Source: Pseudooceanicola batsensis HTCC2597 (lineage in GTDB: Bacteria; Pseudomonadota; Alphaproteobacteria; Rhodobacterales; Rhodobacteraceae). From it: a stretch of 64,000 nucleotides of DNA. Of the stretch, positions 1,507 to 50,273 are shown piece after piece; position 1 is the first letter of the stretch; each line of letters begins with the position of its first letter. The notes beneath the pieces are model-generated. The model had not been told where the DNA came from. It was given only the letters and a program-made list of their open reading frames with translations, and did not search any database. Where the stretch lies: NCBI RefSeq assembly GCF_000152725.1, contig NZ_CH724131.1, forward strand, positions 2,143,167-2,207,166, read 5' to 3'. Both the position numbers and the translations under genes were made by a program.

Positions 1507-1528
1507 GAGTATTTTTGGCAAGATGAAG
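1507..1528 (+). repeat. Dispersed intergenic repeat, copy A (core)
   Basis: This 22-bp core, GAGTATTTTT followed by GGCAAGATGAAG, recurs at about 23.08 and 35.90 kb on the same strand and in related form at five other places. Here it sits between divergent atpI and the ArsR gene, next to GC-rich inverted sequence (GGGCGCCGGCGC). It is read as a member of the family described in the findings; its function is unknown. Confidence 0.7.
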
Positions 1529-1629
1529 ACCGGGCGCCGGCGCACCGCAGGCCCTGCCGCGCCGGATCCGGCCCCGGACGCATATTCAACGATCTGGTTG
1601 AGTCTGCCGCCCGGCGGGGGCATTAACGC

Positions 1630-20745: not shown

Positions 20746-20793
20746 GTCGCCCGTGCCGGGCGACTCCCCCGGGATACTTGGGGACCAAAGAAG
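20746..20793 (+). repeat. Dispersed intergenic repeat, copy C with hairpin
   Basis: A perfect hairpin GTCGCCCG-TGC-CGGGCGAC at 20746-20764 is followed by the core GGGATACTTGGGG and CCAAAGAAG (20771-20793). It lies just beyond the stop of the LysR gene and in front of rppH. The core resembles the other copies while the hairpin sequence is unique to this one. Confidence 0.7.
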
Positions 20794-20801
20794 CAGGGGC
20801 G

Positions 20802-23036: not shown

Positions 23037-23096
23037 GGCGGCGCGGCTGGCCGAGGTCGCGCCGCCTTCGGCGAGAGTATTTCCGGCAAGATGAAG
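23037..23096 (+). repeat. Dispersed intergenic repeat, copy D with hairpin
   Basis: GGCGGCGCG (23037-23045) pairs with CGCGCCGCC (23058-23066), and the core GAGTATTTCCGGCAAGATGA ending in AG follows at 23075-23096. It lies just after the gcdH stop. The remaining sequence to the yejF stop at 23258 contains no gene that I can support. Confidence 0.7.
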
Positions 23097-23257
23097 CAGG
23101 GGCGGCGTACTCCGCCCCCGGAACGGGGCGCGGGGCGGCAACGGGCATTTGCGGCCGGTGCCCTGCTGGCGGGAGCGCGCGCTTCAGCGGTTCGAAGCGG
23201 TTTCGGGGACGCGAAGCGGGGTGGTCGCGGCGGGGCGCGACGGATGGCGGCGGTCGG

Positions 23258-35867: not shown

Positions 35868-35889
35868 CCGGGGCGAGTGGTTGCCTTCG

Positions 35890-35921
35890 CCTCCGGCGGG
35901 AGTATTTTCGGCAAGATGAAG
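35890..35921 (+). repeat. Dispersed intergenic repeat, copy E
   Basis: CCTCCGGCGG leads directly into the core GAGTATTTTCGGCAAGATGA and AG. It lies between cpdB and ytoQ, 10-50 bp after a stop codon, with a GGGGGCG-CGCGT-CGCCCCC hairpin immediately after it. This copy gives the clearest plus-strand form of the core. Confidence 0.75.
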
Positions 35922-35966
35922 ATGGGGGCGCGCGTCGCCCCCTTCGTTTCGGGGAAAGGGACGATC

Positions 35967-42764: not shown

Positions 42765-42806
42765 GGCGGGGCACGGCCAGAGGCGACCCGCGCGCCCGCC
42801 CCCTTT

Positions 42807-42900
42807 CTTCTTGCCCGGAAATATCCCGGGAGGTCCGGAGGGCGGCGCCCTCCGGGGCCCTTGCGGCCCGAGCAAGACTCATCGAACGCGCCGCAGGCGC
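42807..42900 (-). repeat. Dispersed intergenic repeat, copy F (complete)
   Basis: This copy has all three modules: the core CTTCTTGCCCGGAAATATCC ending in CGGGAGG, a perfect hairpin CCGGAGGGC-GGC-GCCCTCCGG at 42835-42855, and CGCGCCGCAGGCGC at 42887-42900. It ends 7 bp from the RNase T2 stop codon, so a minus-strand transcript would run through it right after the gene. Confidence 0.8.
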
Positions 42901-42907
42901 ACCTGTG

Positions 42908-43549
42908 TCACCGAACGCTCTCCAGCAGCGCGTCGGTCATCCGGCAATCCCGGATCACGTCACCGCCGCAGCGCCGCGGGTTCAGCTCGAGGTCCAGGCA
43001 GATGCGCGCCTCGCGAATGCGCTCCGCGCGGCAGGTGATCGTGATCTGATCCGCCGCCAGCCCCGGATTGGCCTCTAGGAACGCCGCCTCCACGACCGCG
43101 GCCGGCAGCCGCACATTGCGGCGCAGGTCCCGCAGCACCTGCGGGCGCTCGATCCGGCCGTAGGCCCGGCGCATCAGATCGAAATACGCGTCCGCCTCGA
43201 CCCCGGCACAGGTCCCGTGCTTCTTCCACTGGTGCCAGGCCGCGCCGGGCGCTCCCATGATGTCCGCCATTCCCGCCGTCATCTTCCGAGATGGCGGACG
43301 CTCGGCGCTCGCGCAATACGAGGGATAGCCCGCCTCGTTCTGCGGCCAGAGACCGTGCAGGACCCAACCGAAGCCCGTGCCGTCCGCACATTGCGGCGAC
43401 CGGCGCGCATCCCCCTCCAGCGCGCACCACGTCGGCGACCAGCTCAGCGACAGCAGGTAATAGTCGAACTCCCCCGGCCGCTCGCCTTCCGCCCTGAGGG
43501 GCAGCGAAGACAGGATCGCAAGGAGGACCGCCGCAAGACACCGCATCAT
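42908..43549 (-). CDS. Ribonuclease T2-family protein
   Basis: This 213-residue exported RNase has a signal peptide (RCLAAVLLAILSSLPLRA), active-site block I as LHGLWPQ and block II as QWKKHGTC, each with its histidine, and several cysteines for disulfides. T2 enzymes cut RNA through 2',3'-cyclic phosphates without base preference and act outside the cytoplasm. It is divergent from trcR; copy F of the dispersed repeat lies behind it. Start is the first of two adjacent ATG codons. Confidence 0.9.
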   Translation of the reverse strand: MMRCLAAVLLAILSSLPLRAEGERPGEFDYYLLSLSWSPTWCALEGDARRSPQCADGTGFGWVLHGLWPQNEAGYPSYCASAERPPSRKMTAGMADIMGAPGAAWHQWKKHGTCAGVEADAYFDLMRRAYGRIERPQVLRDLRRNVRLPAAVVEAAFLEANPGLAADQITITCRAERIREARICLDLELNPRRCGGDVIRDCRMTDALLESVR

Positions 43550-43693
43550 TCTCTCTTTCAATATCCGACCGCCGCGACTATATAGCCCGCAAGTTCCCCG
43601 ACAACGGAAACCCGCACCGCGAGGTGCCGCCTGTCCCGGCAGGCGACGGAGTTCCTGTATTCGGGGCCAACGGATTCGCAAGGAGTGACCGAC

Positions 43694-44449
43694 ATGGGCA
43701 AACCGATCATGGCCAAGGCCACCGCCGTCTGGCTGGTGGACAACACGACCATCACCTTCAAGCAGATCGCCGATTTCACCGGCATGCACGAACTCGAGGT
43801 CCAGGGCATCGCCGACGGCGACGTCGCCGCGGGTGTCAAGGGGTTCGACCCGATCGCCAACAACCAGCTGACCCAAGACGAGATCGACAAGGCCGAGGCC
43901 GACCCGCTCTACAGGCTCAAGCTCAAGTTCAATCCCGCCGCCGTCGGCGAGGAAAAGCGCCGCGGCCCACGCTACACCCCTCTGTCCAAGCGCCAGGACC
44001 GACCGAACTCGATCCTCTGGCTGGTCAAGTTCCACCCCGAACTGACCGACGGCCAGATCTCCAAGCTCGTGGGCACCACCAAGCCGACGATCCAGTCGAT
44101 CCGCGAACGCACCCACTGGAACATCTCGAACATGCAGCCGATCGACCCGGTCGCGCTCGGCCTCTGCAAGCAGTCCGAACTCGACGCCGCGGTCCAGAAG
44201 GCCGCCGCCAAGAAGGCCGCCGAGGGCGAGGCGCTGTCGGACGACGAACGCCGCAAGCTGCTCTCGACCGAACAGTCGCTGGACATGGAAGCCGAGCCGC
44301 GCATTCCGACCGCCATCGAGGGGCTCGAGACCTTCTCGCTCTCCGACGATGACGACGGCGACGACGACAAGTCCGACAACCTCGTGGACGCCGACAGCTT
44401 CTTCAACCTGCCCGACAAGGGCGACGACGACGAGGATGAGCAGCCCTGA
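43694..44449 (+). CDS. trcR: Cell cycle transcriptional regulator TrcR (DUF1013)
   Basis: This 251-residue protein belongs to the alphaproteobacterium-specific DUF1013 family, annotated as TrcR, an RNA polymerase-associated regulator. The N-terminal part has HTH-like segments (TFKQIADFTGMHELEVQGIADG and later LTDGQISKLVGTTKPTIQSI) and LSKRQDRPNSILWLVKFHPE; the C terminus is very acidic (SDDDDGDDDKSD). ATG 43694 has GGAG eight bases before it; the GTG three codons earlier is less likely. Confidence 0.9.
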   Translation: MGKPIMAKATAVWLVDNTTITFKQIADFTGMHELEVQGIADGDVAAGVKGFDPIANNQLTQDEIDKAEADPLYRLKLKFNPAAVGEEKRRGPRYTPLSKRQDRPNSILWLVKFHPELTDGQISKLVGTTKPTIQSIRERTHWNISNMQPIDPVALGLCKQSELDAAVQKAAAKKAAEGEALSDDERRKLLSTEQSLDMEAEPRIPTAIEGLETFSLSDDDDGDDDKSDNLVDADSFFNLPDKGDDDEDEQP

Positions 44450-44593
44450 TCCGGGCCGTCCGCGGACGGGCACCCGAGACGCGGCGCACAGGCGCGTCCC
44501 GGGCTGCACCGTCCCGCCGTTCCGCACCCCATTGGCCTTTCCGCGCCTCTGCGGCAGAATGATCCCGACACGCCTCCGTCCCGGGATCACAGC

Positions 44594-45721
44594 ATGAAAC
44601 TCGCCGTCATCGGCGCCGGCCTGATCGGCTCCGCCGCCGCCCGTCACCTCGCCCGCCAGGGCCGCGACGTCACGCTGATCGGCCCGGGCGAGCCGGCCGA
44701 CAAGACGGCCCATGACGGCGTGTTCGCCTCGCATTACGACGAGGGCCGGATCACCCGGGGCCTCGACCCGATGCCCTTCTGGTCCCGCGCCTCCCGCGCC
44801 GCCATCGCCCGCTATGCCGAGATCGAAGAGGCGTCGGGCATCCGGTTCTACAGCGAGGTCGGCTGCCTGATGGCCGGGCCCGAAGGGTCACCGCAGGTCG
44901 AGAACATGCGCGCCGTGGCCGCACGCGACGCCATCCCCTGCGAGGAACACGACGACGCCTCCCTCTCCGGCCGCTTCCCCTGTTTCGCCTTCCCGCCCGA
45001 CACCGCCGCCCTGTTCGAGGCCAAAGACGCCGGCCACATCTCGCCCCGTGCCCTGACGCGGGCGCAGATCGTCGCCGCCACCCGCGCCGGCGCCCGCCAC
45101 ATCGCGGCGGAAGTCACCGGCTTCGACGAAACCGCCGGAGGCGTCAGGGTGACGACCGCCGCAGAGACCCTGACCTTCGACCGCATCCTCCTCGCCACCG
45201 GCGGCTTCTCCCGCCTCCTGCTGCAGGACCGTCTCCCGATCGAGGTCTACGCCCGCACCGTGGCCCTCTTCGAGATCGACGCCGTCGAGACCCGGCGCCT
45301 GGCCGGAATGCCATCGCTCATCTATCTGGACCCGGAGGGCGAGAACCCCTATCTCCTGCCGCCGATCCGCTATCCGGACGGGCGCACATACCTGAAGATG
45401 GGCGGCGACCCCGAGGACGTGGTCCTCACGACCCGCCAGGAACTCGCCGACTGGTTCCGCTCGCCCGGCACGCCCGGGGTCGGCGCGGCGATCGAGGCGA
45501 TGATCCGCGACCGCATGCCCGGCCTGCGGATCGAACGCAGCGCGACCATGTCCTGCGTCACCACCTACACGCCGGACGAGCATCCCCACATCACGGCCCT
45601 GTCGGATCGCGTCTTCACGGCCATCGGCGGCTGCGGCCGCGCCGCCAAGAACTCCGACGAACTCGGTCGCCTCGGCGCGTTGCGCCTGACGGATCAGCCG
45701 CTTCCCGACTGGGCCCGATAG
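44594..45721 (+). CDS. FAD-dependent oxidoreductase (DAO / sarcosine oxidase-like)
   Basis: This 375-residue protein starts with the dinucleotide motif AVIGAGLIGSAAARHLARQG and has the covalent-FAD-family blocks HYDEGRITRG near residues 45-55, and CVTTYTPDEHPHI and IGGCGRAAKNSDE near the C terminus. Its relatives oxidise N-methyl amino acids. The active-site cysteine position of sarcosine oxidase cannot be judged with certainty. The start has no strong ribosome binding site but fits the family. Confidence 0.85.
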   Translation: MKLAVIGAGLIGSAAARHLARQGRDVTLIGPGEPADKTAHDGVFASHYDEGRITRGLDPMPFWSRASRAAIARYAEIEEASGIRFYSEVGCLMAGPEGSPQVENMRAVAARDAIPCEEHDDASLSGRFPCFAFPPDTAALFEAKDAGHISPRALTRAQIVAATRAGARHIAAEVTGFDETAGGVRVTTAAETLTFDRILLATGGFSRLLLQDRLPIEVYARTVALFEIDAVETRRLAGMPSLIYLDPEGENPYLLPPIRYPDGRTYLKMGGDPEDVVLTTRQELADWFRSPGTPGVGAAIEAMIRDRMPGLRIERSATMSCVTTYTPDEHPHITALSDRVFTAIGGCGRAAKNSDELGRLGALRLTDQPLPDWAR

Positions 45722-45728
45722 CCCCCTG

Positions 45729-45814
45729 CTTCTTTGGTCCGGAAAATATCCCCGCCGGAGGCCCGCTTTCATCCCCCGGATGAAAGCCTGGAATCGCGTG
45801 CGCCGCAGGCGCGC
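45729..45814 (-). repeat. Dispersed intergenic repeat, copy G (complete)
   Basis: The core (CTTCTTTGGTCCGGAAAATA then TCCCCGCCGGAGG) is followed by the perfect hairpin GCTTTCATCC-CCC-GGATGAAAGC (45765-45787) and by CGCGTGCGCCGCAGGCGCGC at 45795-45814, a 20-bp block identical to copy H. It ends 7 bp from the recR stop. Confidence 0.85.
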
Positions 45815-45821
45815 ATTCGGA

Positions 45822-46415
45822 TCAGAACGCCTTGCGCGCGCGCAAGGCCGCGGTGATCGTGCCGTCGTCGAGATAGTCCAGCTCTCCGCCGATCGGCACC
45901 CCCTGGGCGAGCGAGGTCAGCCGCACCCGCCCCTCGAGCTGATCGGCGATGTAATGCGCGGTCGTCTGCCCGTCCACCGTGGCGTTCAGCGCCAGGATGA
46001 CCTCTGTCACCCGCTCGTCCGTCACGCGCTGCACCAGTTTCGGGATCCGCAGCTCCTCCGGACCGACCGCGTCCAGCGCCGAGAGCGTTCCGCCCAGCAC
46101 ATGATACCGCCCTCCGAAGACCGCGGACCGCTCCATCGCCCAGAGATCGGCCACATCCTCGACCACGCAGATCTCGCCGGTCGCCCGCTTCTCGCTGGCG
46201 CAGATGTCGCAGATCTGCCCGGCCCCGATATTGCCGCAGGTCGCGCATTCCCGCACCGTCGCGGCCACATGATGCATCAGATCCGCCAGCGGCGTCAGCA
46301 GCAGTTCCTTCTTGCGGATCATCTGCAGCACCGCGCGCCGCGCCGACCGCGGCCCCAGCCCCGGCAGCCGCGCCATCATGTCGATCAGCGCCTCGATGTC
46401 GCCGCCGGCGCTCAT
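45822..46415 (-). CDS. recR: Recombination protein RecR
   Basis: This 197-residue protein loads RecA in the RecFOR gap repair pathway. It has the HhH start [14 protein letters not shown], a C4 zinc finger ([16 protein letters not shown]) and a Toprim domain ([16 protein letters not shown]) with [15 protein letters not shown]. It follows ybaB by 3 bp in the dnaX-ybaB-recR operon. Confidence 0.96.
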
Positions 46416-46418
46416 GCC

Positions 46419-46763
46419 TCAGAACGGCATCTTGAAATCGGCCGGCAGCCCGAGCCCCTCGGTCAGCTTGCCCATCTCTTCCTGGTGCTTCTCCTGCGCC
46501 TTCTGCTGCGCATCCTTGATCGCCGCCAGGATCAGGTCCTCCACCACTTCCTTCTCGTCCGGATTGAAGATCGACGGGTCGATGTCCAGCGACTTCAGCT
46601 CGCCCTTGTAGGTGGCCACGGCCTTGACCAGACCGGCCCCCGACCGCCCCTCGACGGTCATGTGGTTCATCTCTTCCTGCAGCGCCACCACCTTGGTCTG
46701 CAGCTCCTGGGCCGACTTCAGCATCTTCGCCATGTCGCCCATCTGGCCGATTCCCTTGAACAT
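46419..46763 (-). CDS. YbaB/EbfC nucleoid-associated protein
   Basis: This 114-residue DNA-binding protein forms a dimer with long helices (MAKMLKSAQELQTKVVALQE) and the family core VEGRSGAGLVKAVATYKGEL. The start at MFKGIGQMG has an AGGAGA site; the longer frame adds eight residues. It sits between dnaX and recR, the standard order, and probably assists replication or repair at the nucleoid. Confidence 0.93.
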   Translation of the reverse strand: MFKGIGQMGDMAKMLKSAQELQTKVVALQEEMNHMTVEGRSGAGLVKAVATYKGELKSLDIDPSIFNPDEKEVVEDLILAAIKDAQQKAQEKHQEEMGKLTEGLGLPADFKMPF

Positions 46764-46856
46764 CTCTGTCTCCTGATCCTGCATCCTGACGCGCCCGGAG
46801 GCGCAGCTCCGTCGACTGCCGATATCGCGATCCGACGGTCCGAGTGCAACCCCGTC

Positions 46857-48602
46857 TCAATCCTCTTCGAACGGGTCCCACTCGTCCTCGACCTCGGCCA
46901 GCGCCTCGGTCGCGGCCTCGGCGGCCACATCCTCGGCCGTCCGGATCGCCGTGATCGCCGCCTTGGGAAAGGCCGCCAGGACCGCCTGGACCAGCGGATG
47001 CGCACCCGCTTCCTCCCGCAGGGCCAGCGCCTTGGCGTCGCGGGTCTCGGCGATCGTCTCGCCACCGCCCTCGTTGGCGACGATCACCGCCCATCTGTTG
47101 CCGGTCCAGCCCTGCAGCCGCGCCCCCAGCTTCTGCGCCAGGTCCCGCGGCGCATCCCCGGTCGGCACGAACTCGATCCGGCCGGGACGATACCCCACCA
47201 GCCGCACGCAGGTCTCGACCTCGACCAGAAGCTTCACGTCCCGGTTCGCCCGGATCAGCTCGACCACGTGATCGAAGCTGGGATACCGCGCCAGCGCCTG
47301 GTCCACGTCCTCGGCGGCCTGGGCGACCGGACCGTGCACACGCGCCCCGCCCGATCCCGCCGGGCTGCCCTGGAGGCTGGTCGCGCCGGTGGTCGGCCCG
47401 TGCGACGCGGCGCCCCCGCCGGGCGGGCCGGGGGGCGGCGGCTGATCTCTGAGCTTCCGCACAAGTTCCTCGGGCGAGGGCAGCTCGGCCACATGGGTCA
47501 GCCGGATCACCGCCATTTCGGCCGCCATCATCGCGTTCGGCGCGGCGGCGATTTCCTCCAGCGCCTTCAGCAGCATCTGCCACATGCGCGTCATCGCCCG
47601 CATCGGCAGGCGCCCGGCGAGGTCGGCTCCGCGCGACCGCTCTTCCGGTCCGATGGTCGGGTCCTCCGCCGCGTCCGGCGTGATCTTCACGACCGAGATC
47701 CAGTGCGTGATCTCGGCAAGGTCCCGCAGCACGGCCAGCGGGTCCGCCCCGTCCGCGTATTGCGCGCTCAGCTCGGTCAGGGCCGCCGCCGCATCGCCGC
47801 GCATCACCATCTCGAACAGGTCCATCACCCGGCCTCGGTCCGCGAGGCCAAGCATCGCCCGCACCTGATCGGCCGTGGTCTCTCCCGCCCCGTGCGAGAT
47901 CGCCTGGTCCAGGAGCGAGGTCGCATCCCGCGCCGACCCCTCCGCCGCCCGGGTGATCAGCGCCAGCGCGTCGTCGGCGATCTCGGCCCCTTCGCGGTCG
48001 GCGATCTCCCGCAGCAGGTCGATCATCACCTCCGGCTCGATCCGCCGCAGGTCGAACCGCTGACAGCGCGACAGCACCGTGACCGGGACCTTCCGGATCT
48101 CCGTCGTGGCGAAGATGAACTTCACATGCTCCGGCGGTTCCTCCAGCGTCTTGAGCAGCGCGTTGAACGCGCTGGTCGATAGCATGTGAACCTCGTCGAT
48201 GATGTAGATCTTGTACCGCGCCGAGGCCGCCCGGTAATGCACGCTGTCGATGATCTCGCGGATGTCGTTGACGGAGGTGTTCGAGGCGGCGTCCATCTCC
48301 ATCACGTCGACATGGCGGCCTTCCATGATCGCGACGCAGTGTTCGCATTTGCCACAGGGGTCGGTCGTCGGCCCGCCCTGCCCGTCCGGCCCGATGCAGT
48401 TCATCCCCTTGGCGATGATCCGCGCCGTGGTCGTCTTGCCGGTGCCCCGGATCCCCGTCATGATGAACGCCTGCGCGATCCGGTCGGCGGCGAAGGCATT
48501 GCGCAGCGTGCGCACCATCGCGTCCTGTCCGACGAGATCGGCGAAGGTTTCGGGCCGGTACTTGCGCGCCAGCACCTGGTAGGCGGGTTTGGATTCGCTC
48601 AT
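46857..48602 (-). CDS. dnaX: DNA polymerase III subunits gamma and tau
   Basis: This 581-residue clamp-loader ATPase has Walker A GIRGTGKTTTARI, a zinc-binding loop (CGKCEHCVAIM), Walker B IIDEVHML and SRC in VLSRCQRF. A long proline-rich linker separates domains I-III from a C-terminal tau-like region. The start at MSESKPAYQ has a GAGGC site. It leads dnaX-ybaB-recR. I did not find a frameshift signal for a short gamma product. Confidence 0.95.
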   Translation of the reverse strand: MSESKPAYQVLARKYRPETFADLVGQDAMVRTLRNAFAADRIAQAFIMTGIRGTGKTTTARIIAKGMNCIGPDGQGGPTTDPCGKCEHCVAIMEGRHVDVMEMDAASNTSVNDIREIIDSVHYRAASARYKIYIIDEVHMLSTSAFNALLKTLEEPPEHVKFIFATTEIRKVPVTVLSRCQRFDLRRIEPEVMIDLLREIADREGAEIADDALALITRAAEGSARDATSLLDQAISHGAGETTADQVRAMLGLADRGRVMDLFEMVMRGDAAAALTELSAQYADGADPLAVLRDLAEITHWISVVKITPDAAEDPTIGPEERSRGADLAGRLPMRAMTRMWQMLLKALEEIAAAPNAMMAAEMAVIRLTHVAELPSPEELVRKLRDQPPPPGPPGGGAASHGPTTGATSLQGSPAGSGGARVHGPVAQAAEDVDQALARYPSFDHVVELIRANRDVKLLVEVETCVRLVGYRPGRIEFVPTGDAPRDLAQKLGARLQGWTGNRWAVIVANEGGGETIAETRDAKALALREEAGAHPLVQAVLAAFPKAAITAIRTAEDVAAEAATEALAEVEDEWDPFEED

Positions 48603-48722
48603 GGATGCCTCGGGACTCACTCGATATCCGAACCTAAGGGGCCGCGCCGGCATCGTCCACCGAGCTTTCCCGGAACCGAAGGCTGGTCTAGGATTTATTC
48701 AGGCATAGAGCGGAGGAAGAAC

Positions 48723-49562
48723 ATGCGTCTCAGAGGTGTCCGTCGCAGCCGCAACATCGAGGACCGCCGGCGCAGCCGCGGGCGCGGCGGCGCCATCGGC
48801 GGGCTGGGCATCGGCGGTGTCCTGGTGGTTCTGGCCATCGGCTATTTCACCGGCATCGACGTCAGGCCGCTGCTCGACGGCGCACCGCAGCAGTCCTCCG
48901 CCCCGCGCGCCCTGACCCCGGCCGAAGAGCGCGCGGCGGATTTCAGCGCCTCCGTCCTCGCCACGACCGAGGACGTCTGGAGCCGGCTGTTTCCCGCACA
49001 GGTGGGCACCGAATACGCCCCGCCCGTCCTCGTGCTCTTCTCCGGCCGGACCGAAAGCCCCTGCGGCGGCGCCTCCGGGGCCACCGGGCCCTTCTACTGT
49101 CCCGCCGACCGCAAGGCCTATCTCGACACCCAGTTCTTCGCGACCCTCTCGGAACGGCTCGGCGCCGGGGGCGATTTCGCCGCCGCCTATGTCATCGCCC
49201 ACGAGGTGGCGCATCATGTCCAGAACGAACTCGGCATCCTCGCCCGCGTCCACGAGGCGCGCCGGCAGTCCGACCAGACCCGGGCCAACGCCCTGACGGT
49301 GCGGCTGGAACTCCAGGCCGACTGTCTCTCCGGTGTCTGGGCCGCCCACGTCGACGGGCTGCTCGAACCCGGCGACATCGAAGAGGCGCTGAATGCTGCC
49401 CGGATGATCGGCGACGACCACCTGCAGCGACAGGCCGGCCGCGTCCCGCAGCCGCACACCTTCACCCACGGCACCTCGGACCAGCGCGCCCGCTGGTTCG
49501 AAAACGGCTACGACACGGGCGAGATCGGTGCCTGCGACACCTTCGCGGCGGACAGGTTGTGA
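48723..49562 (+). CDS. YpfJ-family neutral zinc metallopeptidase
   Basis: This 279-residue membrane-anchored protein has an arginine-rich N terminus, one helix (GGAIGGLGIGGVLVVLAIGYF) and a metallopeptidase domain with HEVAHHVQN, the HExxH zinc motif, and later LELQADCLSGVW. The family is a predicted peptidase whose substrates are unknown. Start at ATG after GGAGG. It is followed after 7 bp by a small membrane protein gene. Confidence 0.9.
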   Translation: MRLRGVRRSRNIEDRRRSRGRGGAIGGLGIGGVLVVLAIGYFTGIDVRPLLDGAPQQSSAPRALTPAEERAADFSASVLATTEDVWSRLFPAQVGTEYAPPVLVLFSGRTESPCGGASGATGPFYCPADRKAYLDTQFFATLSERLGAGGDFAAAYVIAHEVAHHVQNELGILARVHEARRQSDQTRANALTVRLELQADCLSGVWAAHVDGLLEPGDIEEALNAARMIGDDHLQRQAGRVPQPHTFTHGTSDQRARWFENGYDTGEIGACDTFAADRL

Positions 49563-49569
49563 ACCGGCG

Positions 49570-49869
49570 ATGACACGACGGGGCATTCTCCTCGGCCTGC
49601 TCGCGCTCTGGCTGGTGACCTACCTGGCCTCCCTCGTCTATCCCCCCACGCTCGCCGCCGAGGGCGACGGATTCACCCGCGGCATCAACCGGGTCATGAC
49701 CTTCCTCGGCCTTCAGTTCGGAGCGGGGCTGATCGCGGTCGCCGTTCTGGCGGTCCGGCCCTCCCAGGGACGTCTGCGCTGGATCGCATTGATACCCGCG
49801 GCGCTGGCCGCGCTGCTCCTGCTCGCCATCGCCGGGCTCATCCTGTGGTCGCGCGTCGCACACGGCTGA
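49570..49869 (+). CDS. Small membrane protein of unknown function
   Basis: This 99-residue protein has three hydrophobic helices (GILLGLLALWLVTYLASLVY, QFGAGLIAVAVLAV, IALIPAALAALLLLAIAGLI). It starts 7 bp after the metallopeptidase gene, so the two are probably in one transcript. I do not recognise a family. The ATG at 49570 is preferred over a frame opening inside the previous gene. Confidence 0.7.
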   Translation: MTRRGILLGLLALWLVTYLASLVYPPTLAAEGDGFTRGINRVMTFLGLQFGAGLIAVAVLAVRPSQGRLRWIALIPAALAALLLLAIAGLILWSRVAHG

Positions 49870-50023
49870 ACCGCCGCTCTAAAGGACCTGGAAGTTCCGC
49901 AGCACCGGCCCGCGCTTCACCGACGAGCGCAGATGCCGGCCCGACAACAGGAGCGACAGCACCGCGCGGAGCAAGGTGCAGCACCGATGACGCCCAAAGG
50001 GCGGGTTGTCTGTGGGGAGGGGG

Positions 50024-50121
50024 GTGAGAGGCTGGACAACGACCCAAGCGGGGCTCGTTACGGCTGCTTCCTTCCGGACCTGACCGGGTTGGCGAGGCGC
50101 TCGCCCGCGCCAACCTCTCAC
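50024..50121 (-). ncRNA. ffs: Signal recognition particle RNA (small bacterial type)
   Basis: The minus strand contains GGTCAGGTCCGGAAGGAAGC followed by AGCC, the conserved apical domain that binds Ffh, flanked by a long stem whose ends GTGAGAGG and CCTCTCAC pair. Total length is about 98 nt. It is isolated between the small membrane protein and pheT. The ends are estimated from the stem only. Confidence 0.9.
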
Positions 50122-50175
50122 GACCGGACATAATCCCCCGCCACGATTCCTTCAAGGGGCCCCGCGCCCCCTTTT

Positions 50176-50260
50176 CTTCTTGCGGGCAAATATCCCCGCC
50201 GGAGGCACCGCGGCCATTCCCCGGAATGGCCGCCCGAGATCGCGTGCGCCGCAGGCGCGC
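50176..50260 (-). repeat. Dispersed intergenic repeat, copy H (complete)
   Basis: The core (CTTCTTGCGGGCAAATATCC then CCGCCGGAGG) is followed by the perfect hairpin GCGGCCATTCC-CC-GGAATGGCCGC (50210-50233) and by CGCGTGCGCCGCAGGCGCGC (50241-50260). It ends 13 bp from the pheT stop, the same layout as copy G. Confidence 0.85.
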
Positions 50261-50273
50261 CTCCGGGTTCGGC

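Follow-up and report, generated by a model that had tools for sequence, protein, structure and literature searches.

Three intergenic sites in the genome of Pseudooceanicola batsensis HTCC2597 raise the question of what maintains a hairpin that is perfectly paired at every site while its letters differ from one site to the next. The sites, here termed copies F, G and H, lie in a stretch of 64,000 nucleotides (nt) (hereafter the window; positions 2,143,167 to 2,207,166 of contig NZ_CH724131.1) on the 3.43-Mb chromosome contig of this 4.44-Mb genome, and adjoin minus-strand genes that an initial annotation, made from the letters alone, had named as ribonuclease (RNase) T2, recR and pheT, identities with which Pfam agrees. 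Our analysis indicates that F, G and H are probably family-wide, non-coding, mosaic palindromic repeats that behave like repetitive extragenic palindromic (REP) sequences and bacterial interspersed mosaic elements (BIMEs) but are built differently, and that supply RNA hairpins. The three-part layout first described for these sites (core, perfectly paired hairpin and GCGCC-GCA-GGCGC block, the last without mismatch) was found in each of them, as given below with cores read on the minus strand and with scores from R1, a sequence-only model built from 48 copies of the repeat (alignment A1).

42797..42912, sense on minus strand: copy F, whole element, after the RNase T2 gene (R1 28.6 bits over 42797-42833)
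42819..42836, minus strand: F core, GGACCTCCCGGGATATTT
42835..42855, no strand: F variable hairpin, CCGGAGGGC-GGC-GCCCTCCGG
42888..42900, no strand: F GCGCC-GCA-GGCGC hairpin block
45722..45824, sense on minus strand: copy G, whole element, after recR (R1 48.3 bits over 45722-45762)
45744..45761, minus strand: G core, CCTCCGGCGGGGATATTT
45765..45787, no strand: G variable hairpin, GCTTTCATCC-CCC-GGATGAAAGC
45800..45812, no strand: G GCGCC-GCA-GGCGC hairpin block
50166..50270, sense on minus strand: copy H, whole element, between pheT and the signal recognition particle (SRP) RNA gene (R1 39.3 bits over 50166-50207)
50188..50205, minus strand: H core, CCTCCGGCGGGGATATTT
50210..50233, no strand: H variable hairpin, GCGGCCATTCC-CC-GGAATGGCCGC
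50246..50258, no strand: H GCGCC-GCA-GGCGC hairpin block

Because the RNase T2, recR and pheT genes lie on the minus strand, the parts follow one another in transcripts in the reverse of their plus-strand order: from 5′ to 3′ the element runs from a GATCCGG-like start (present in many copies) through a GCGCC-TGC-GGCGC hairpin, a spacer, the variable hairpin and a core ending in ATATTT to about four free bases and a tail (GACCAAAGAAG in G). Read on this strand, the core is identical in G and H, which match exactly over AAATATCCCNGCCGGAGG (F variant, AAATATCCCGGGAGG); with up to three mismatches, this sequence was found four times in the window compared to 0.22 expected, a count reached by 0 of 100 shuffles. 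The 13-mer GCGCCGCAGGCGC, exact in F, G and H, is not rare in the window when taken alone with one mismatch (four found, 1.72 expected, four reached by 9 of 100 shuffles), and G and H share 22 identical bases around it, close to the 20 first reported. The distance from this block to the gene stop was 7, 9 and 15 nt in the three copies (7–13 bp as first described). The stems proved, as first noticed, unrelated in letters and perfect in pairing, with 9 bp and a 3-nt loop in F (CCGGAGGGC), 10 bp and a 3-nt loop in G (GCTTTCATCC) and, in H (GCGGCCATTCC), 11 bp around a loop of 2 nt or, alternatively, 10 bp around a loop of 4 nt. The accompanying remark that no T-run follows is correct on the plus strand only; in minus-strand transcripts, GGGAUAUUU closes the core and forms a U-rich but interrupted tract ahead of the tail. 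A bacterial small SRP RNA gene (RF00169; 50023-50119, minus strand) was also observed directly after copy H, and the named RecR genes most similar to that of the window belong to Primorskyibacter (Rhodobacterales, Roseobacteraceae in the NCBI taxonomy) and Pseudooceanicola.

The initial proposal of a composite, dispersed repeat, with F, G and H as three of its copies, was borne out by a genome-wide R1 search, which returned 129 matches at E ≤ 1 (150 candidates scored), the weakest of which are doubtful. A direct R1 search of a 400-kb stretch gave 22 matches, identical to the genome-wide list there, and the 18-base core with up to three mismatches occurred 61 times in the genome compared to twice for the reversed pattern. 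Four of the further copies lie in the window:

35889..35929, plus strand: further copy with type B core CCTCCGGCGGGAGTATTT and tail GCAAGATGAAG (R1 42.1 bits)
23064..23104, plus strand: further copy, type B variant CCTTCGGCGAGAGTATTT (R1 31.1 bits)
20766..20800, plus strand: further diverged copy, weak match (R1 18.8 bits)
1507..1536, plus strand: further diverged copy, weak match (R1 17.8 bits)

Three core types were distinguished, namely A (CCTCCGGCGGGGATATTT), B (CCTCCGGCGGGAGTATTT) and C (C-rich forms, e.g., ACTCCCCCCGGGATATTT), and a rough tally over the 117 copies scoring at least 18 bits gave 24 of type A, 18 of type B, 70 of type C and 5 others; tails in the same copies were, again roughly, ACCAAAGAAG-like in 66, CAAGAAGAA/CAAGATGAAG-like in 50 and different in 1. 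The GCGCC block forms the first hairpin in 20 of these 117 copies within the stretch examined (33 by a looser tally), and a GGGGGC-GCCCCC hairpin replaces it in many others. The three-part plan thus holds beyond F, G and H, with parts that are exchangeable. Almost all matches (127 of 129) fall on the chromosome contig, whose share of the genome is 77% (P = 2e-12). A 100-kb segment inside the 400-kb stretch with 22 matches (~1,180,000-1,280,000 of contig C2 of this genome, G000; loci L261-L265) holds no R1 match and is perhaps an acquired region.

Searches of existing collections did not name the repeat. At gathering score, Rfam returned only the SRP RNA in the window and nothing in 12 loci with other types, and its three matches to the F stretch at E ≤ 5 were all far below gathering scores; a phage collection held no match at E ≤ 1; transfer RNA (tRNA) scans found no gene in the window and two across 60 loci, both more than 250 nt from any core; and the top results of literature searches on the core letters and on Rhodobacterales repeats, small RNAs and terminators did not include the repeat. 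Two consensus queries of a plasmid collection matched 7 records (E ≤ 0.01) and a further 6 at the looser cut-off of E ≤ 0.1, with one site per record and none under a listed gene (two records are unannotated and gene tables are incomplete); a copy on a Ruegeria sp. TM1040 plasmid lies between dgcN and dgcA.

To characterize the variable hairpin, the best stem within 56 bases upstream of the core was scored in the 117 copies and compared to shuffled sequence and to a downstream stretch. A stem score of at least 8 was reached by 67 copies (57%) compared to 9% of shuffled and 13% of downstream controls, confirming the initial expectation of more pairing than in shuffled sequence, and a score of at least 6 by 107 copies (91%) compared to 44% and 34%, respectively. 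Ten like copies, which share the GCGCC block and have cores of type A or B, show 95% identity in the core and 41% in the 5′ arms; stems in these copies are 95% self-paired, whereas arms taken across copies pair at 42%. These pairing values were scripted from each copy's best hairpin, because the MAFFT alignment of the ten copies (A2) misregisters the variable stems. The initial annotation had offered as alternatives that structure rather than sequence is kept or that the stem is replaced as a unit, and we find both: three further copies carry the F stem and one more has it as CCGGAGGG, and the G stem recurs once, while within the F stem set three copies alter outer pairs on both sides. A further paired change separates H (GCGGCC..GGCCGC) from copy 501981+ (GCGACC..GGTCGC), with copy 3284764+ unpaired at that position. 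In G268, another genome of the genus, the stem score is at least 6 in 12 of 14 copies and at least 8 in 10 of 14. Two other foldings were considered and set aside. A closing stem between 5′ flank and core, suggested by H, was rejected as a general feature, its complementarity over 117 copies being no greater than that of shuffled flanks; and a third hairpin with an AUAUUU loop, drawn by eye in F, H and G268, is not claimed, as its letters fail to pair in many copies of this genome.

All-against-all comparison of copies further resolved subfamilies within which similarity runs across the entire element: F is 90% identical to 618380+ over 99 nt, G 91% to 1587864- over 105 nt, 1484212- 96% to 881740+ over 76 nt and, in a longer form, 531060+ 85% to 895590- over 206 nt. 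Eleven tail-to-tail pairs with gaps of 2–12 nt and three head-to-head pairs within 750 nt were found, and tail-to-tail pairs resemble each other as pairs (501981/502026 and 929792/929837, 88% over 122 nt). From these similarities, together with the copy number, placement, paired hairpins and genome-specific spelling, we infer that copies spread and are homogenised within a genome as units. The REP-type (Y1) transposase anticipated initially is not supported as the mover: PF01797 was found in 0 of 22 genus genomes by a search that was positive in 5 of 14 controls and that covered this transposase family only. As for terminal inverted repeats, one copy had a run of 10 and another a run of 9, and the remainder did not exceed shuffled flanks. 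Separately, three G268 loci (L327, L331 and L346) were observed to hold head-to-head composites in which two copies surround two hairpins and the ends are complementary, resembling a complete palindromic unit.

Relatives carry the repeat in their own spellings. At E ≤ 0.001, R1 matched 60 of 80 genomes drawn from the family, which we take to be GTDB Rhodobacteraceae, and 22 of 22 genomes of the genus, this genome being included in both counts. Only four of 190 genomes in a class draw matched, comprising this genome, a second member of the family and two genomes outside it with a single weak match apiece (7e-4 and 9e-4); one further family member in that draw had no match. Best-scoring stretches from other genomes, a choice biased toward R1, contained CCTCCGGCGGG, two purines and TATTT in 39 of 40 cases, with tails in the 40 that are repeated within a genome and different between genomes. 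In G268, the number of R1 matches was 2 at E ≤ 0.001 and rose to 25 at E ≤ 5; fourteen of these, once aligned, share CCTCCGGC-(G/A)-GCGGTA-(T/C)-TT followed by the tail GCCCGAAGG, and a model built from them (R2) matched 42 sites in G268, none in this genome and no more than 3 in each remaining member of the set of 22 genus genomes. Such genome-specific spelling implies that copies within one genome change together.

Two rival explanations bear on these patterns. A chromosomal site for a DNA-acting protein, such as a nucleoid or topology factor at gene ends that recognises core and tail, would account for the long conserved core and tail, for the near-restriction of matches to the chromosome contig, for roughly even orientation (below) and for spelling that shifts jointly in all copies of a genome, as would that of a site together with its protein; it leaves perfect hairpins of varied letters unexplained, and we consider it quite improbable. 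A selfish or neutral dispersed repeat with no host job, surviving where it is harmless (i.e., in promoter-free gaps), would readily produce subfamilies, shifts of spelling between species and a copy number varying from 2 to 109 across the genus (as counted with R1, a model fitted to the spelling of this genome). A core that remains recognisable in three-quarters of the family genomes and hairpins that stay paired both speak against a job-free repeat, which we regard as possible though doubtful; a selfish element whose movement depends on its hairpins would be compatible with every point raised against it, including the placement near recR described below.

We next consider where copies lie relative to genes, using gene calls with a score cut of 20 for classing copies and 25 for the 400-kb background, and gap classes that omit the SRP RNA beside H and a tRNA-His near 428411+ (L090:1145-1221, plus strand, 280 nt upstream of that sense copy). 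With R1 at 19 bits or above, 115 copies were obtained, 4 of which were inside called genes and were dropped. The remaining 111 lie in convergent (41), divergent (9) and codirectional (61) gaps, compared to 38, 50 and 140, respectively, among the 228 gaps that measure 40 nt or more in the 400-kb background, an enrichment in convergent and depletion in divergent gaps that is highly significant (P = 6e-9). Clustering at 3′ ends, expected from the three original sites, was accordingly upheld, 102 of the 111 copies having at least one adjoining called gene 3′ end; the single orientation of those sites did not generalise, as codirectional copies were sense in 35 cases and reversed in 26 (P = 0.31, no clear bias). 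Many copies occupy their gap almost entirely: for 12 of the 41 in convergent gaps and 11 of the 26 reversed ones, no more than 10 nt separate the tail end from a stop codon on the opposite strand.

Such placement invites reading the repeat as a lineage-specific intrinsic terminator with an interrupted U-tract, which would stop transcription at AUAUUU before the tail, serve convergent genes through tail-to-tail pairs and stop antisense transcription through reversed copies. Besides the gap classes, a same-strand upstream neighbour in 76 of 111 copies agrees with this idea, as do the eleven tail-to-tail pairs (though only about four lie between convergent genes) and the plasmid contexts, where 6 of 13 matches were examined and all five that have an upstream gene listed show it in the sense direction (two of the five being alike Leisingera plasmids). 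The core can also be folded as a small hairpin, CUCC-GGC-GGGG, immediately before AUAUUU, one pair of which is altered on both sides in 128194+ and 2166230+ (CCTTCGGCGA). Ordinary T-tract terminators are moreover rare: a simple scan of the 400-kb stretch (L259-L278) found them at 6 of the 60 convergent ends that lack a copy, at 1 of the 9 that have a sense copy and at 1 of the 7 that have a reversed one, and this rarity throughout makes the comparison of ends with and without copies uninformative.

Against efficient termination, the 3′ edge of the strong hairpin is not adjacent to the tract but mostly 16–17 nt before the TATTT end (14–39 among the values listed), the conserved downstream tail would be superfluous for termination, and codirectional orientation is near-even, a balance that, like the divergent depletion, would be expected of a selfish repeat. 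In addition, the next called start lies within 30 nt of the matched tail in 10 of 35 codirectional sense copies (at 2–7 nt in six); two of these ten starts are inside the tail and are probably miscalls, the one at window copy 35889 at least. One sense copy lies between dnaN and a recF-like gene, with the called start 5 nt past the matched tail, and another between fabD-like acyl-transferase and fabG-like genes, with the start 3 nt past it (Pfam: DNA polymerase beta subunit then RecF/SMC-type; acyl transferase then FabG-type short-chain dehydrogenase); a class-V aminotransferase (Pfam) follows sense copy 723853-. At such intercistronic copies the purine-rich tail overlaps the likely ribosome site. 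Gene pairs of these kinds are commonly cotranscribed, which makes an efficient stop at AUAUUU unlikely. The initial statement that these are not plain terminators is hence probably right, for this reason rather than for the supposed lack of a T-run.

Copy direction may matter at some places. The gene order pheT then SRP RNA occurs at five genus loci (the window and L238-L241), and R1 places a sense copy between the two genes at four of them (at L239 only a by-eye variant is present); three of these copies are type A and one is C-like by eye, and their stems differ. Within ~150 nt after pheT, R1 found copies at 7 of 21 genus loci (an N-terminal fragment locus omitted), six sense and one reversed. 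Both observations suit a terminator. By contrast, a copy precedes recR in 15 of 80 named loci from several genera (L206, L180, L217, L181, L209, L211, L208, L200, L207, L184, L196, L168, L167, L183 and L179), always reversed, an orientation that would not terminate transcription of the operon. Each of these copies comes soon after the stop of the gene before it, which is ybaB in all 4 of the 15 loci that were tested. These copies carry core types A, B and C, and a site kept in one orientation despite different core types is the placement that counts against a selfish repeat. Within 170 nt after recR, R1 found copies in 4 of 80 named loci, all reversed. Weighing these results, we judge a lineage-specific terminator unlikely, though partial termination may occur.

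We therefore return to the palindromic repeat supplying RNA hairpins and outline how it might act. In RNA, the element would present one or two strong hairpins beside the AU-rich hexamer AUAUUU and would most likely serve as a 3′-end and intercistronic mRNA element rather than as an efficient terminator, the hairpins slowing 3′ exonucleases and the AU-rich point being open to RNase E. REP hairpins can stabilise upstream mRNA. In Rhodobacter sphaeroides, RNase E sites are often AU-enriched at the cut, as described in an excerpt of PMC6238624, which would make AUAUUU in GC-rich surroundings a natural cut point. Regarding spread, we entertain, with considerable reservation, a REP-like system that lacks the REP transposase, in which a family-conserved trans factor would recognise core and tail and homogenise copies into dialects, and any perfect hairpin would fit mid-element.

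Several observations weigh against the main reading of a spreading repeat that supplies RNA hairpins. Stem mismatches in this genome comprise 5 G.T and 7 A.C, and 12 and 11, respectively, when relatives and G268 are included; although events are few, they show no strand bias, a balance that selection on one RNA strand would not predict, and perfect stems could also be maintained through DNA-level use or palindrome-correcting mutation. Among 39 other-genome copies picked by model score, the stem score was at least 6 in 24 and at least 8 in only 8, making the strong hairpin less general outside this genome. Empty sites were not seen, the species compared being too distant to align gaps around copies, so that spread as copied units is reached by inference, and the gene calls behind the gap classes came from a purpose-built codon-based caller, trained on nine hand-picked window stretches, that called no RNA genes. 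On letters alone, we propose the RNA role, taken by itself, only tentatively.

Whichever role applies, a large bacterial family gains a searchable repeat with no Rfam match in the stretches scanned. If intra-operon copies alter RNA stability, they would add to gene control a layer that is widespread and simple to edit, and if a trans factor also acts on RNA, the repeat would mark mRNA 3′ ends and intra-operon processing throughout the family.

Compared with known systems, the repeat resembles the HRC-8-4 motif of Rhodobacterales in being an order-restricted intergenic hairpin motif with a U-run; an excerpted description (PMC8632094) places HRC-8-4 mainly between ccoNOQP and ccoGHIS, and we set the two apart by this described location, not by sequence. 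With intrinsic terminators it shares a position near gene 3′ ends and strong hairpins that precede AU-rich sequence, but its strong hairpin is non-adjacent, its tract is interrupted (AUAUUU), its tail is conserved downstream, and it occurs in both orientations and between probably cotranscribed genes. It shares with miniature inverted-repeat transposable elements a short, non-coding, many-copy form with no transposase of its own, and a few head-to-head composites with complementary ends, but has no general terminal inverted repeat, and neither a parent element nor a target duplication was identified. The closest behaviour is that of REPs and BIMEs, whose traits, as excerpted from PMC2817692, include many extragenic palindromes, paired changes, units in opposite orientation, mosaic composites and species-specific spelling. 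More than 100 short extragenic copies, palindromes whose pairing is kept, close opposite units, mosaics and species spelling are likewise seen here. The consensus nevertheless lacks the GTAG/GTGG start (A1, 48 copies; A2, 10 copies), no Y1 (REP-associated tyrosine transposase, RAYT) gene was found in the 22 genus genomes searched, and a long conserved core and tail accompany the hairpins, a core of similar form occurring in 60 of the 80 genomes drawn from the family. Because two defining features, the GTAG start and the Y1 gene, were looked for and not found, we do not file the repeat as REP/BIME; its comparison with them separates REP-like behaviour from the Y1 transposase proposed to drive REPs, and asks what else spreads and homogenises such repeats.

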